Assembly (NCBI GenBank): GCA_021801345.1
Contig: JAJYYA010000046.1
Location: forward strand, 1-34,155
Length of the DNA: 34,155 bases
Reading direction: 5' to 3'
Origin: Nitrospirota bacterium
GTDB lineage: Bacteria > Nitrospirota > Leptospirillia > Leptospirillales > Leptospirillaceae
In this document: positions 3,346 to 33,565 of the stretch, in pieces
How positions within the stretch are numbered: the stretch's first letter is position 1
Layout: each line of letters begins with the position of its first letter
Notes under the pieces: generated by a model
The model's input: the letters and a program-made list of their open reading frames with translations, nothing else
Databases searched by the model: none
What the model was told of the DNA's origin: nothing
Program-made: the position numbers and the translations under genes

Positions 3346-4731
3346 GTGGGCTTTGTCTCGCTTGTCTCCCCCATCCGGGATCTCTCTCCCTGGAAAAAGA
3401 TCCTCGACTTCGGGGTCAACTCCAATGTCGTGACAAGTTTTGCCTGCGATGCCCTGGGAAAGATCGTGCTCTTCGACGACGGTCTCATCCATCTGACCAA
3501 ACTTCCGGCCCGGTCGCTCTCCCGGATGCCTGTGCGCTCTCTCCGGGAGCATCTTGCCGCTCGGGGAGGGCCCAAGGGGGCTCCGGAACCGGAGGGGGAG
3601 GATCTTTACCGCCGGAAGGACTACAGGGGGACAAACGAACAGGGGACTCTTGTCTGGTGGGGGTTCCCCATCGGTACTCTTCCTCAGCCCGCCGGTCTTT
3701 ACTTCCTCAGCTTCTACGACCGGATGCCGACGGAAAAGCAGATCGAATCCGCCGAATATCCCGAGATCGTCAAAACCCGGGACAAGATTATGGGAGCCGT
3801 CGCCCGCCACCTCTTGGACGAGGTCGACCAGAACGTCCTGATGGCTGAGATCCCCCGCCTGATGGAGTGGGAGGATCTTGCCTTCAAGCACCATCGGGTT
3901 TTTCTTGTCGACGGCGTGACGCTCGATGACGGTCCCCGGCCAATCTATCTCCAGTACGACGGTCCCGAGGAGAAGCTCCGGATGTTTCAGGAGAACGTCT
4001 CCATGGGCGACATCCAGTTCTTCAAGAAGATTTCGGAGGCCGGTCCCCGCCCCGCCCTGATCGAACACACAGAGAAACGCTATCGCTACGAGATCATGCT
4101 CCCTCTCACCTGGTACATCCATGTTCTGGGGTGGATCGGGATTCCTCTCCCCTCTCTCGATACCTGGATGAAGCCCGTTCGCCTGAACTTCGAGGAGATC
4201 GTCCGGAATTTGGGAGACTCATTGGGGGAAGAAAGGATGGCTCTGGGACTGCTTCCGCACTATGATGTCCATCGTGGGCTCTTCGAGGAGGAGAGCTTCA
4301 TGACGCTGATGGGAGAGATGATCTCACGCCATCCTCCCCGACCCTTTGTTCTGGTCGAAGTTCGGATGGCCCCCGCTCACCGGGACCTTCTTCAGGGCGT
4401 TCTCGACCGGGCCAAACGGCCCTCCGATATCCTGGCGCAAGTGGGGGAGAACCTGGTGATCCTCTTCCCGGACCAGGACGTGGGACGGGCAAAGGCGGTT
4501 GAAAACCGTTACCGGGAGGTTCTGGGAAAGTTCGTCGCCAGCCGTCCGGAGGTCGCCCTGACAATCAGCGTCTACTGGTTCCCCTCCCTGGCCTGGTCGG
4601 GACGGGAGCTCATGGCCGCCCTGGACGAGCGGCCGAAGATCGAGATCGTTCCCGGAGCGGGCGAGCCGGCGGCAAAACAGGAATTTGACGACTGGTTCAA
4701 GAGATTCATGATCCTTAAGGACTGGGAGTAG
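3346..4731 (+). CDS. Hypothetical protein with a C-terminal degenerate GGDEF domain
   Basis: This 461-residue protein starts at GTG 3346, two nucleotides after the lpd stop, so it is probably translationally linked. Residues 1-290 match no family I know; there is no signal peptide and at most a weak hydrophobic stretch near 252-270. Residues about 303-428 follow the GGDEF plan: HYDVHRGLFEEESF matches the YDxLTGLxNRRxF opening, PFVLVEVR the LLLLDID strand, and RPSDILAQVGENLVILFPD the R-SD-LARxGGDEFxxLLP core. The signature is replaced by QVGENL (365-370) and the metal-binding aspartate is lost. It should therefore not make c-di-GMP and could act as a GTP or c-di-GMP sensor, or structurally. 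The domain call is mine from pattern alone. Confidence 0.6.
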   Translation: MGFVSLVSPIRDLSPWKKILDFGVNSNVVTSFACDALGKIVLFDDGLIHLTKLPARSLSRMPVRSLREHLAARGGPKGAPEPEGEDLYRRKDYRGTNEQGTLVWWGFPIGTLPQPAGLYFLSFYDRMPTEKQIESAEYPEIVKTRDKIMGAVARHLLDEVDQNVLMAEIPRLMEWEDLAFKHHRVFLVDGVTLDDGPRPIYLQYDGPEEKLRMFQENVSMGDIQFFKKISEAGPRPALIEHTEKRYRYEIMLPLTWYIHVLGWIGIPLPSLDTWMKPVRLNFEEIVRNLGDSLGEERMALGLLPHYDVHRGLFEEESFMTLMGEMISRHPPRPFVLVEVRMAPAHRDLLQGVLDRAKRPSDILAQVGENLVILFPDQDVGRAKAVENRYREVLGKFVASRPEVALTISVYWFPSLAWSGRELMAALDERPKIEIVPGAGEPAAKQEFDDWFKRFMILKDWE

Positions 4732-30553: not shown

Positions 30554-30907
30554 CCCTATTTCGAGATTTTTTGGCGACATTCCCAAGGCAAACTCTATGC
30601 GTTTCCGGACATTTTGCCCCGCCCGATTTGAGCGGGATGCCGGAGCAGGCCCATTCGACCGGTTTTAGGGGAAGGTTCTTTCTGTAATTTGTGCTCGATC
30701 CTCCGGGCCTTGCGAGACAAGGCTCTCGACTCATGGTCCGCACACGCCCTTCACTTACCCCCCCATCGTCAACGGCTTATTTACAGGCAAAGACGGTCAA
30801 TGACTTTTTTGCCGCACACCGGAGAGCTGGGTCCTGCTTGAACTTCTATGAGGAGACGGGGATTTGTTTGTCGAACGTCCCAGAGAATCCGCCACTCCTC
30901 TGCTTGT
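30554..30907. other. Intergenic stretch without recognised gene
   Basis: I see no supported gene on either strand. Open readings here lack ribosome sites and resemble no known protein. A small CCCG/CGGG hairpin lies near 30628-30644. It forms the left edge of the mosaic accessory segment. Confidence 0.5.
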
Positions 30908-30978
30908 CGCCTTCCGCTCCGGCTCGCCGGACCTTTTGAGGGGGTCCGCTCGCCTGCTCTGGTCCTCCGGACCCGGCG
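30908..30978 (-). repeat. Left copy of an inverted, hairpin-forming element
   Basis: Read on the minus strand, it starts with a 20-bp sequence identical to 33443-33462 on the plus strand and ends with the same GAGCGGAAGGCG. Inside are two hairpins: GGTCC/GGACC around GGA, and CGGACC/GGTCCG (30943-30948 with 30928-30933). The second stem differs in sequence from the right copy but keeps pairing. Nature unknown: a structured RNA or a mobile-element end are both possible. Confidence 0.6.
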
Positions 30979-31131: not shown

Positions 31132-31194
31132 TTACTAGTTACGGGACGCCCGCCCGTCTTGCGAGGAGCATGACCAGGTCCTGGATCTCCTTGT
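31132..31194 (-). pseudogene. 3'-end fragment of the repeated small-protein gene, with its stop-codon palindrome
   Basis: About 60 bp closely match the 3' end of the intact gene at 32989-33348, including TTACTAGTTAC at the stop codon and the CTGGATCTCCTTGT stretch. The match ends abruptly at about 31190. Only the last 16 or so codons survive. Confidence 0.65.
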
Positions 31195-31212: not shown

Positions 31213-31266
31213 TGGAAACGTGACACGTCACGGAATAGAATTGTGTCGTAATCGTGACACGTCACA
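31213..31266 (+). promoter_or_regulatory. Promoter with two CGTGACACGTCACG operators
   Basis: TGGAAA (31213-31218) and TAGAAT (31236-31241) are 17 bp apart. The first operator, CGTGAC-AC-GTCACG (31219-31232), fills the spacer; the second, differing only in its last base (31253-31266), lies just downstream of the -10. It precedes the small gene at 31285 by 18 nt. The layout equals that of the two neighbouring genes of this type. Confidence 0.65.
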
Positions 31267-31284: not shown

Positions 31285-31374
31285 ATGGCGATGACAGAGA
31301 AGGAACGTCAGAAGAAAAGACGAGAAAGGCTCAGGGGGGAATACGGAAAGAATTTTTCGATAAAGGAATCATGA
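31285..31374 (+). CDS. Very short basic protein, truncated member of the autoregulated small-protein group
   Basis: A 29-residue frame from ATG 31285 with a G-rich ribosome site (GGGGGAG). It begins MAMTEKERQKKRRERLRGEY and ends NFSIKES. The start resembles the N-terminus of the intact protein at 32989-33348 (MATPAERQKAYRERKRAKG), so it is probably the remains of a similar gene cut off after its basic N-terminal arm. Its TGA lies in the palindrome GAATCATGATTC (31366-31377), which also holds the stop of the convergent gene at 31369-31638. This suggests truncation by recombination at that palindrome. Whether it is translated is unknown. Confidence 0.5.
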   Translation: MAMTEKERQKKRRERLRGEYGKNFSIKES

Positions 31375-31377
31375 TTC
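31366..31377. repeat. Palindrome GAATCATGATTC containing two convergent stop codons
   Basis: This perfect 12-bp palindrome has TCATGA at its centre (31369-31374). TGA stops the plus-strand frame from 31285, and its complement stops the minus-strand gene 31369-31638. It matches the two operator boxes upstream of the latter gene. Confidence 0.75.
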
Positions 31378-31638
31378 GATACATTTTCGGCTCTCCTCTT
31401 TCGCCTTCTGGATCTCCTTCGCGTTCCGGCCGGCGGCCTCTTCCAGCAACCGACTCACGACCTCTGACCCAGTGCAGTTCCAGACCCTTTTGAGATCCTG
31501 GACGATGAACTTGTCCTTGAGGGTTAATGAAAACTGCATGAGCTTCAGCGCCTCGGGGATGATTTTGTTCGCCTCCCGTCGCTTCCGAGAGGCCCTGGCT
31601 CGCTCCGAAGCCGATTCATGAATTTTCTCTCTCGCCAT
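31369..31638 (-). CDS. Small ribbon-helix-helix-like DNA-binding protein, probably autoregulatory
   Basis: An 89-residue protein from ATG 31638 behind an excellent ribosome site (AAAGGAGG, 6 nt). The N-terminus is basic (SERARASRKRREANK). Residues about 36-70, FSLTLKDKFIVQDLKRVWNC followed by TGSEVVSRLLEEA, fit strand-helix-turn-helix as in ribbon-helix-helix repressors. The promoter (31661-31708) carries two copies of a GCATCATGATTC-type palindrome, and a third overlaps the stop codon, so the protein itself is the likely binder (inference). Its target beyond its own gene is unknown. It lies in the mosaic segment with related small genes. Confidence 0.7.
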   Translation of the reverse strand: MAREKIHESASERARASRKRREANKIIPEALKLMQFSLTLKDKFIVQDLKRVWNCTGSEVVSRLLEEAAGRNAKEIQKAKEESRKCIES

Positions 31639-31660: not shown

Positions 31661-31708
31661 CGCATCATGATTCCATACAATCATACCGAATCATGATGCG
31701 ATTATCAA
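31661..31708 (-). promoter_or_regulatory. Promoter with paired TCATGA-centred operators
   Basis: On the minus strand TTGATA (31708-31703) and TATGAT (31685-31680) are 17 bp apart. A perfect 13-bp inverted repeat (CGCATCATGATTC 31661-31673, GAATCATGATGCG 31688-31700) places one palindrome in the spacer and one just downstream of the -10. It lies 23 nt upstream of the gene start at 31638. Confidence 0.78.
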
Positions 31709-31829
31709 CCCTTTGGTTGCCGAGCCCCTATTCGTAACTCATTGCACCCCGGCTGGAACGCAGCCGGAAAGAGACAAGCGGAGCAGGACACCCCGTCGCC
31801 TTCTGTCTCACCCCCGTATCAACAACTAG

Positions 31830-32126
31830 TTATAGAATCCCCGCCCGTCGTGACAGGAGAATCGCCAGGGACTGGACCTCTTTGTCGTTTTCCTTCCGAA
31901 CCTTCTGCATTCTCACGTCGAGATTGGACAGGAGAGCCCAGAACCGGAGCGGGTTCCCTTCCTTGTCCCGGAAGCGTTTCTCGGCCCGATCCAGCCGCTC
32001 CCGGATTGCGGCCATCTTGTCGCGGGCCGCCACTGTCTCCGGGGGGATCCCGGTCGGGAGGATTCCCCTCTCCAGGAACTCCCGGATGATCCGGTCCTGG
32101 TCGCTCGTCGCGAAAGTAAGCCGGTC
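31830..32126 (-). pseudogene. 5'-truncated copy of the repeated small-protein gene
   Basis: From RDRLTFATSDQDRIIREFLE to the end SLAILLSRRAGIL this is a close paralogue of the intact gene at 32989-33348. The first 20 or so codons and the promoter are replaced by unrelated sequence with an in-frame TGA inside CGTGACACGTCACG (32154-32167). A shorter frame from GTG 32033 could still be read. The stop codon overlaps ACTAGTTA, as in the intact gene. Confidence 0.7.
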
Positions 32127-32153
32127 CCGGAGGAGGAACGGGGAGGTGTGGGG

Positions 32154-32167
32154 CGTGACGTGTCACG
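32154..32167. repeat. Orphan copy of the CGTGAC-AC-GTCACG palindrome
   Basis: An exact reverse-oriented copy of the operator found upstream of the gene at 31285. It sits next to the truncated end of the paralogue at 31830-32126, with no promoter recognised. Confidence 0.7.
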
Positions 32168-32275
32168 CGGTATCGGTCGTCTGGCGTCGGGCCGTCGCCC
32201 GGGCCGGCTACGAAAAGGAATGCGAGGAGAAAAGTACGAAGCCGGAGCCCGCCTTTCTGGTGGATCTCACCTTGC

Positions 32276-32413
32276 GATCTTCGTCACGAAGCCACGTCAC
32301 GGTTCTTAGAAAAGGGACTGAACCCCATGGAAGTGTCGGCCATCACCGGCCACAAGACGCTTCAGATGCTGAAACGGTATACTCACCTGAAAGCGGAGGA
32401 TTTGTTGAAATAG
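32276..32413 (+). pseudogene. C-terminal remnant of a tyrosine recombinase/integrase
   Basis: Forty-five codons read [20 protein letters not shown], then [20 protein letters not shown] and EDLLK. This is the C-terminal catalytic part of phage-type integrases, with the box II arginine (LRHE), the GHKT histidine and the nucleophile tyrosine (RYTHL). Upstream the frame dissolves into unrelated sequence, so only the 3' end survives. Its last codons (TTG AAA) provide the -35 box of the downstream gene. It shows that an integrated element once lay here. Confidence 0.88.
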
Positions 32414-32451: not shown

Positions 32452-32838
32452 ATGACCTTCGATACGTTGGCCGTGGCCACAGAACTTAAAGACGCAGGGT
32501 TTTCTCCCAATCAGGCTGAAGCCTTGGCCCGTGCCTGGAGCCATGTCGCCTCAGGAGACCTCGCCACCAAGTCCGATCTGATCGGAGTCAAGTCCGAGCT
32601 GGAAAAGCAGATCGCGGGGGTCAAGTCCGATCTGGTCGGGGTGGAAGCCTCCCTGAAACAGGATATCGCTGGCGTCCGGACTGATCTGGAAAAGCAGATC
32701 GCGGGGGTCAAGTCCGATCTGGAAAAGAAAATCGATGCCGTCCATTCCGACAACGTTCTGCTGAAGTGGATGATCGGGTTCACTCTCGGCCTCTCCCTCC
32801 TCATCCTCGGCAAGCTTTTCAATGTCCATCTCCCGTGA
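32452..32838 (+). CDS. DUF1640-like coiled-coil protein with a C-terminal membrane anchor
   Basis: A 128-residue protein from ATG 32452 with AAAGGAG five nt upstream. Residues 1-35 (FDTLAVATELKDAGFSPNQA) and the sequence LATKSDL match the small DUF1640/CCDC90-like family. Residues 40-100 are a coiled coil built of 11-residue units such as GVKSDLEKQIA, also visible as near-identical 33-bp DNA repeats. Residues about 104-123 (LKWMIGFTLGLSLLILGKLF) form one membrane helix. Such proteins are frequent in acidophile and mobile-element genomes and their function is unknown. Confidence 0.82.
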   Translation: MTFDTLAVATELKDAGFSPNQAEALARAWSHVASGDLATKSDLIGVKSELEKQIAGVKSDLVGVEASLKQDIAGVRTDLEKQIAGVKSDLEKKIDAVHSDNVLLKWMIGFTLGLSLLILGKLFNVHLP

Positions 32839-32879: not shown

Positions 32880-32893
32880 CGTGACACGTCACG
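32880..32893. repeat. Second orphan copy of the CGTGAC-AC-GTCACG palindrome
   Basis: An exact copy of the operator at 31219-31232, located 5 nt after the CRISPR-repeat-like sequence. No promoter or start codon is attached to it. Confidence 0.7.
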
Positions 32894-32983
32894 GACCCCG
32901 TCGCCTCTCCTCCCTCCCCTGTGTGTGTGGATGCTCTTCGTTATCCAGTTACGAAACGGGCTTGGATCGGGCCGAAATGCGTT

Positions 32984-32991
32984 ACTAGTTA
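32984..32991. promoter_or_regulatory. ACTAGT palindrome overlapping a stop codon
   Basis: ACTAGT (32984-32989) overlaps the TAA (32991-32989, minus) of the small gene at 32989-33348. The same core lies twice in that gene's promoter and at the stop codons of its two decayed paralogues (31132-31141 and 31825-31832). Confidence 0.65.
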
Positions 32992-33348
32992 CAGAACTCC
33001 CGCCCGTCTTGCCAGGAGCATGACCAGGTCCTGGATCTCCTTGTCGGTTTCTTTCTGGACCTTCTGCATTCTCACGTCGAGCTCGGACAGGAGAGCCCAG
33101 AACCGGAGCGGGTTCCCTTCCTTGTCCCGGAAGCGTTTCTCGGCCTTATCCAGCCGCTCCCGGATTGCGTCCATCTTGTCGCGGGCCGCCACTGTCTCCG
33201 GGGGGATCCCGGTCGGGAGGATTCCCCTCTCCAGGAACTCCCGGATGATCCGGTCCTGGTCGTTCGTCGCAAAATAGAGCCGGTCCTTTTGTCCCTTCGC
33301 CCTCTTCCTCTCCCGATACGCCTTCTGTCTCTCCGCCGGTGTCGCCAT
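32989..33348 (-). CDS. Small basic, probably autoregulatory DNA-binding protein (intact copy)
   Basis: A 119-residue protein from ATG 33348 with AAAGGAG six nt upstream. It begins with a basic arm (MATPAERQKAYRERKRAKG), continues with KDRLYFATNDQDRIIREFLE, a strand-helix stretch reminiscent of ribbon-helix-helix proteins, and then long charged helices (AIRERLDKAEKRFRDKEG; VRMQKVQKETDKEIQDLVML). I do not recognise a named family. Its promoter (33381-33422) carries two ACTAGT-centred operators and a third overlaps its stop codon, which suggests self-repression. Two decayed paralogues lie at 31132-31194 and 31830-32126 in the same orientation. Confidence 0.72.
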   Translation of the reverse strand: MATPAERQKAYRERKRAKGQKDRLYFATNDQDRIIREFLERGILPTGIPPETVAARDKMDAIRERLDKAEKRFRDKEGNPLRFWALLSELDVRMQKVQKETDKEIQDLVMLLARRAGVL

Positions 33349-33380: not shown

Positions 33381-33422
33381 ATAACTAGTGACAATAATAG
33401 AACACATTACTAGTTATGTCAA
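33381..33422 (-). promoter_or_regulatory. Consensus promoter with paired ACTAGT operators
   Basis: On the minus strand TTGACA (33422-33417) and TATTAT (33399-33394) are separated by 17 bp. TTACTAGTTAT (33407-33417) sits in the spacer and ATAACTAGTGA (33381-33391) just downstream of the -10, as an inverted pair with centres 25 bp apart. It drives the gene starting at 33348. Confidence 0.85.
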
Positions 33423-33442: not shown

Positions 33443-33511
33443 CGCCGGGTCCGGAGGACCAGCGAAGCGCACAGGGACCCCCAAGAGTCCCGGTGCCGCG
33501 AGCGGAAGGCG
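33443..33511 (+). repeat. Right copy of the inverted, hairpin-forming element
   Basis: It shares its first 20 bp and its final GAGCGGAAGGCG with the left copy at 30908-30978, in opposite orientation. Its second hairpin pairs GCAC-A-GGGAC (69-78 of block 33400) with GTCCC-G-GTGC (33487-33496) around CCCCAAGA. The remaining 54 nt up to the adhesin gene show nothing further. Confidence 0.6.
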
Positions 33512-33565
33512 CAAGGAAGGGAGAGAGGCCGGGGGAGAGAGATCCGGGAAAGACCCCACGGACGC

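Follow-up and report, generated by a model that had tools for sequence, protein, structure and literature searches.

Candidate operators at the promoters and at the stop codons of two small putative autorepressor genes in a Nitrospirota genomic island

Introduction

Two short genes of one genomic island are each accompanied by three copies of a palindrome, and the palindrome differs from gene to gene: it has an ACTAGT core at gene 1 and a ATCATGAT core at gene 2. Two of the copies overlap the promoter; the third lies at the stop codon. What might an operator be doing at the end of the gene whose product would bind it? We have addressed this question in the window (the whole stretch of DNA that was analysed, 34,155 nucleotides; it is C24, one of the 73 contigs of the 2.6-Mb genome G000) and in related genomes. 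The original prediction had placed a palindrome at the stop codon of both intact cassettes and of both decayed copies of gene 1, and every one of its coordinates was right (Table 1). It had also offered three functions for the third copy: looping of the gene, a block to convergent transcription, and a recombination boundary.

Table 1. Positions of genes, promoters, candidate operators and gene fragments in the window
Feature	Position	Strand	Description
Gene 1	32989..33348	-	119 aa ORF; probable autorepressor of ACTAGT sites
Gene 1 tail operator	32982..32991		Candidate site TTACTAGTTA; ACTAGT core at 32984-32989 overlaps the stop (TTA on forward strand, 32989-32991)
Gene 1 inner promoter operator	33384..33389		ACTAGT; just downstream of -10
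Gene 1 outer promoter operator	33409..33414		ACTAGT; inside -35/-10 spacer
Gene 1 promoter	33394..33422	-	TTGACA-17-TATTAT; 11/12 consensus matches
Gene 1 copy, promoterless	31825..32127	-	5'-truncated (aa 21-119); tail ACTAGT 31825-31830
Gene 1 short 3' fragment	31132..31194	-	Tail ACTAGT 31134-31139
Gene 2	31369..31638	-	89 aa; probable autorepressor of ATCATGAT sites
Gene 2 tail operator	31366..31377		GAATCATGATTC; includes the stop (TCA on forward strand = TGA)
Gene 2 inner promoter operator	31662..31673		Form G(A/C)ATCATGAT(T/G)C
Gene 2 outer promoter operator	31688..31699		Form G(A/C)ATCATGAT(T/G)C; in -35/-10 spacer
Gene 2 promoter	31680..31708	-	TTGATA-17-TATGAT; 10/12 consensus matches
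Third small gene, 5' fragment	31285..31374	+	29 aa, MAMTEKERQKKRRERL...; terminates within gene 2 tail palindrome
GTGACACGTCAC pair	31220..31265		Upstream of third small gene
Tyrosine integrase gene, 3' end	32138..32404	+	Repeated across genomes
CCDC90-like coiled-coil protein	32452..32838	+	Convergent neighbour of gene 1; Pfam PF07798, 3.7e-9

Two small genes with operator-bracketed promoters

We compared six promoters: those of gene 1 in the window, G009 and G016, and those of gene 2 in the window and on contigs C1 and C70 of G016. In all six, one palindrome is situated in the spacer and a second just after the -10 element; repeated palindromes that overlap the promoter are what an autorepressor would be expected to have. 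An autorepressed promoter is laid out in this way, and the encoded protein would bind there. Homologues of gene 1 with both promoter operators are found in G009 (87% protein identity) and G016 (57%), the -35 and -10 hexamers being weak in the latter.

Neither protein could be assigned to a family. The gene 1 product has no match in Pfam, PHROG, PADLOC or PDB and belongs to no recognised family; searches for relatives in plasmids, phages and viral contigs found none. Relatives of gene 2 were found in G000 and G016 only, out of 396 genomes of the phylum searched; none turned up in plasmids, and a match in viral contigs (L284) was rejected as false, being peptidase-like. The gene 2 sequence has a strand-helix-helix pattern that resembles ribbon-helix-helix proteins. 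Searches of Pfam and PDB yielded no significant match to that family, or to any other there or in PHROGs and PADLOC, and comparison with CopG by hhalign gave a probability of 1.0%. A low-confidence model of this protein produced weak fold matches to CopG, AtaR and VapB, all with E > 1; indeed, structure models of both proteins are of low confidence, and fold searches with them returned no significant match.

The tail palindrome co-varies with the promoter operators in a gene 2 homologue

With up to one mismatch, AACTAGTTA has 10 strand-matches (at five places) in the window, against 0.69 expected, and none of the shuffles reached 10. Pattern searches of the 2.6-Mb genome found 13 occurrences of TNACTAGTNA: four are the stop-codon sites of gene 1 and its fragments, and the gene 1 promoter operators account for two more. 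For the gene 2 12-mer, GAATCATGATTC, the four occurrences in the window with two mismatches allowed, versus 2.0 expected, are not significant by count; what makes this palindrome significant is where it lies and that it recurs in relatives.

The tail ACTAGT of gene 1 is present in the G009 congener and is retained in four decayed or partial copies: those at 31134 and 31825 in the window, both of which overlap their own TAA exactly as gene 1 does, and 3' fragments on contigs C48 and C50 of the same genome. The short fragment at 31132-31194 is 93.7% identical to 32982-33044. Since the decayed copies are promoterless, the full arrangement of two promoter sites plus one tail site occurs in the window only in the two intact cassettes. 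The gene 2 tail palindrome is likewise retained, in 3' fragments of G016 and G001. In the core, pairwise identity among six gene 1 tails is 1.0, compared with 0.77-0.83 upstream of it and 0.24-0.29 beginning at +7; the corresponding values for gene 2 tails are 0.97, 0.48 and 0.24 (one copy, from L141, entered this comparison in both orientations, and the pattern is unaffected).

Could the tail palindrome be a coincidence or a by-product of coding, in which C-terminal ES-stop codons (GAATCATGA) were spread by recent duplication? Most gene 2 fragments do end in ES-stop, which by itself supplies 9 of the 12 palindrome bases. However, coding does not dictate the gene 1 site, which is better conserved than the coding DNA beside it. 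Furthermore, an intact gene 2 homologue on contig C1 of G016, a member of another genus (51% identity), has an altered operator, CGAARCATGATNCG: its promoter sites read CGAAACATGATACG and CGAAGCATGATGCG, and its tail site, CGAAGCATGATACG, is positioned 16 nt past the stop codon, outside the coding region. Bearing in mind that all three sites have changed together, and that the tail site is here non-coding, the tail is not a coding by-product, an explanation that we consider extremely improbable. This co-variation is the strongest evidence that the tail site is an operator, and the original prediction that the third copy would serve as one is well supported at the level of sequence. The predicted strand residues of the protein also differ in this homologue (MQFSL to VQTSL), a change that may be linked to operator specificity.

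The tail site is not obligatory, as G016 gene 1 and a decayed gene 1 copy in G002 both show: the former retains both promoter operators with the tail site missing, and the latter is also without it. Conservation of the tail palindrome together with the promoter operators holds for G009 and for G016 gene 2 but fails for G016 gene 1, a homologue of just the type that had been named in advance as refuting the idea.

Convergent neighbours and terminators at the tail site

Another key observation concerns what adjoins the tail site. At most of these sites the next gene is convergent: this applies to the main copy, C50, C48, G009, C70 (twice), C56a, G001 and C58. The neighbour of gene 1 is the CCDC90-like gene both in the window (151 bp away) and on C50 (43 bp), and in G009 it is a MobA/VirD2 relaxase at 146 bp. 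At the C70, C56 and G001 sites the convergent neighbours are small or toxin-antitoxin-type genes, and on C58 a convergent 127-aa ORF has its own stop in the same gene 2 palindrome. The tail sites at 31825, C56b and C51 are exceptions, the next gene being co-directional.

Up to 250 bp from the stops of the full-length genes that have tail sites, we found no hairpin of terminator type followed by a T tract, in either direction. G016 gene 1, which is intact and has no tail site, does have such a hairpin: GGGGTATGGACATATGTCCATACC, with an 11-bp stem and a T tract after it on the strand that faces the convergent gene. This single case is suggestive of a terminator standing in for the tail operator. 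The decayed gene 1 of G002 has neither a tail site nor a terminator.

We hypothesize that genes 1 and 2 encode autorepressors and that the tail operator acts as a roadblock at the gene end, a proposal that we rate as about evenly balanced between right and wrong. Each small repressor would bind the two operators that bracket the -10 element of its own strong promoter, and also the tail operator, which coincides with the stop codon or lies shortly beyond it. With protein on it, the tail site would then stop polymerases that come in from convergent genes (relaxase, CCDC90-like and toxin-antitoxin genes), and would do so at loci that have no intrinsic terminator at the gene end; polymerase transcribing the repressor gene itself may also be halted there, close to the stop, as with LacI at O3. 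We infer protein binding, autorepression and roadblocking from DNA features: the roadblock is favoured because tail sites match promoter operators in two unrelated families, because the neighbours are mostly convergent, and because terminators are absent from the intact tail-site loci. It is weakened because no known DNA-binding family is matched by either protein and confidence in the structure models is low, and because three tail sites face co-directional genes, the terminator swap was seen once and the decayed G002 copy has neither tail site nor terminator. Proteins bound to DNA, moreover, are for the most part inefficient as roadblocks (review PMC10310618). Of the three functions originally suggested, a block to convergent transcription fits best, given that the genes on either side of a tail site mostly converge on it and that the one intact homologue lacking such a site has a terminator-like hairpin towards its convergent neighbour, with the three co-directional cases standing against it.

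A related reading places the effect within the gene itself: a tail-bound repressor would stall its own polymerase, generating a non-stop mRNA and thus a tmRNA-tagged, degraded repressor, a feedback of the LacI/O3 type. LacI bound at O3 does cut short the transcript of its own gene; the incomplete protein that results is SsrA-tagged and then degraded (PMC3711431; see also PMC3985003). Sites at the stop (genes 1 and 2), or 16 nt past it (G016 gene 2), would truncate the message at that point, and terminators in the gene's own direction were not found. Yet promoter autorepression would already be limiting transcription, and G016 gene 1 has lost its tail site; we regard this feedback as decidedly unlikely.

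The looping function, in which the repressor would bridge promoter and tail operators into a repression loop, fared worse. Promoter-to-tail spacings of 296-425 bp are within the range of known loops, and that of gene 1 is the same (400/425 bp) in G000 and G009, but this constancy is set simply by gene length. The gene 2 spacings are 296/322, 310/334 and 303/331 bp, equivalent to 28.19/30.67, 29.52/31.81 and 28.86/31.52 turns; looping is less likely because this helical phase is not kept, and we consider it very unlikely.

The tail palindrome as the fixed end of 3' fragments

The remaining suggestion was that the palindrome is a recombination boundary. A mobile or recombining unit would then end invariably at the tail palindrome, so that its copies share one 3' end and are truncated to different extents at the 5' end. 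In all copies, identity drops to random within about 7 nt past the palindrome. Moreover, about 11 independent fragments include the 3' end (gene 1: 31134, 31825, C48 and C50; gene 2: C1, C70, C56, C51, C58, C26 and G001) and none has a 5' end only, a polarity with a probability of about 1 in 1000 under random truncation (two-sided, assuming independence and counting the two C56 copies as one). In the window, the 5' part of the third small gene meets gene 2 exactly at the palindrome, and the cassettes inhabit islands that contain integrase fragments, relaxases and toxin-antitoxin genes.

Against this, the homology between G000 and G009 on the promoter side does not stop at the outer operator but continues into a GC-rich repeat (33482), and the tail site of G016 gene 2 is 16 nt beyond the stop. 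Palindromes bounding the cassette at both ends were not found: the 3' boundary is sharp, and the 5' boundary is beyond the outer operator. Exact excision or insertion of a cassette between palindromes, which the original prediction had proposed as a check, was not seen in related genomes, nor was an empty site, and the relaxase flank of the G009 gene has no counterpart in other genomes. Decay of an island around a conserved operator would give a partly similar picture. Homology ends at the tail palindrome but not at the promoter operators; the idea of a mobile unit we judge unlikely. The 3'-only fragments raise a separate question, namely how such islands break and rejoin.

A broader version of the roadblock hypothesis, which we put forward as speculation with a low chance of being correct, is that in autorepressor cassettes of mobile islands the tail operator replaces a terminator and insulates the gene against transcription from any neighbour it comes to lie beside, the palindrome doubling as the fixed end of 3' fragments. 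If so, small mobile genes would carry a portable insulator, that is, a self-shutting promoter and a tail site, both run by one tiny protein. G016 gene 2, with three changed operators, and G016 gene 1, with a terminator instead of the tail site, offer direct comparisons.

Comparison with known systems

The cassettes as a whole might be viewed as a variation on the theme of an operator at the end of a repressor's own gene, for which the closest precedent is lac O3 and LacI of E. coli. Gene 1 and gene 2, like the repressor gene there, have an operator close to their end. On the other hand, the LacI promoter is not operator-bracketed, and O3 is also part of the lacZYA control region, whereas in the present case the three sites together serve a single small gene, with convergent neighbours beyond the tail; homology was not found. 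The controller (C) protein of Kpn2I is a small mobile-element regulator that is reported to repress the gene encoding it by acting as an elongation roadblock (PMC6237814). It resembles what is proposed here for the two genes; in contrast to it, genes 1 and 2 match no Pfam family. Plasmid autorepressors of the CopG/MobC ribbon-helix-helix type (RA3 MobC, PMC4175270) are also small and reside on mobilisable DNA; gene 2 is distinguished from them by its tail operator, with no significant sequence or fold match.

Integron cassettes share a palindrome 3' of each small gene, toxin-antitoxin cargo and a nearby tyrosine recombinase. They differ in that the sites described here are 8-12 bp, family-specific and also present in promoters, and that the integrase is phage-type. 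Inspection gave no support to an integron attC reading: neither an attC-like structure nor a GTTRRRY/RYYYAAC core was seen around the sites. A full-length relative of the integrase, in L050, matches Phage_integrase.

Other elements of the islands

Copies of the 3' end of the tyrosine integrase gene occur at many places in these genomes, joined to different cargo. Gene 2 3' fragments with the tail palindrome adjoin toxin-antitoxin-type genes (L064, 3235 and 4174; L065, 2770; L066, 2496), and on C56 a HigBA-like pair is located between two 3' copies of gene 2. A third palindrome, GTGACACGTCAC, occurs at two further places in the window (32155-32166 and 32881-32892), in L058 (2584) and in L159 (1975); its settings are a pair before the truncated third gene, a position within the integrase reading frame, and single copies after two tail regions.

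A cluster of TCGTACGA in L049 was considered as an operator set and rejected, because it overlaps and adjoins a coproporphyrinogen-oxidase-like reading frame; seven CGTACG palindromes lie within ~230 bp (3799-4022), inside the end of that frame and immediately about it.

Inverted copies of a GC-rich repeat of ~75 bp, which has no match in Rfam, bound the window island at 30895-30978 (-) and 33443-33523 (+). Copies are also present in L156, L158, L060 and L063: in G015 a similar pair, 8 kb apart, surrounds a TrwC-relaxase/coupling-protein element, in G008 another encloses 12.5 kb of DNA that include a coupling-protein-like gene, and in G009 gene 1 is between direct copies. Finally, tandem arrays of 45-50 bp units, each with a CGCATCATGATTC palindrome, are found in L050 (948-1067) and at the ends of two G000 contigs, C10 (L113) and C67 (L114); those of L050 and C10 have a tyrosine integrase gene, or the 3' end of one, nearby.
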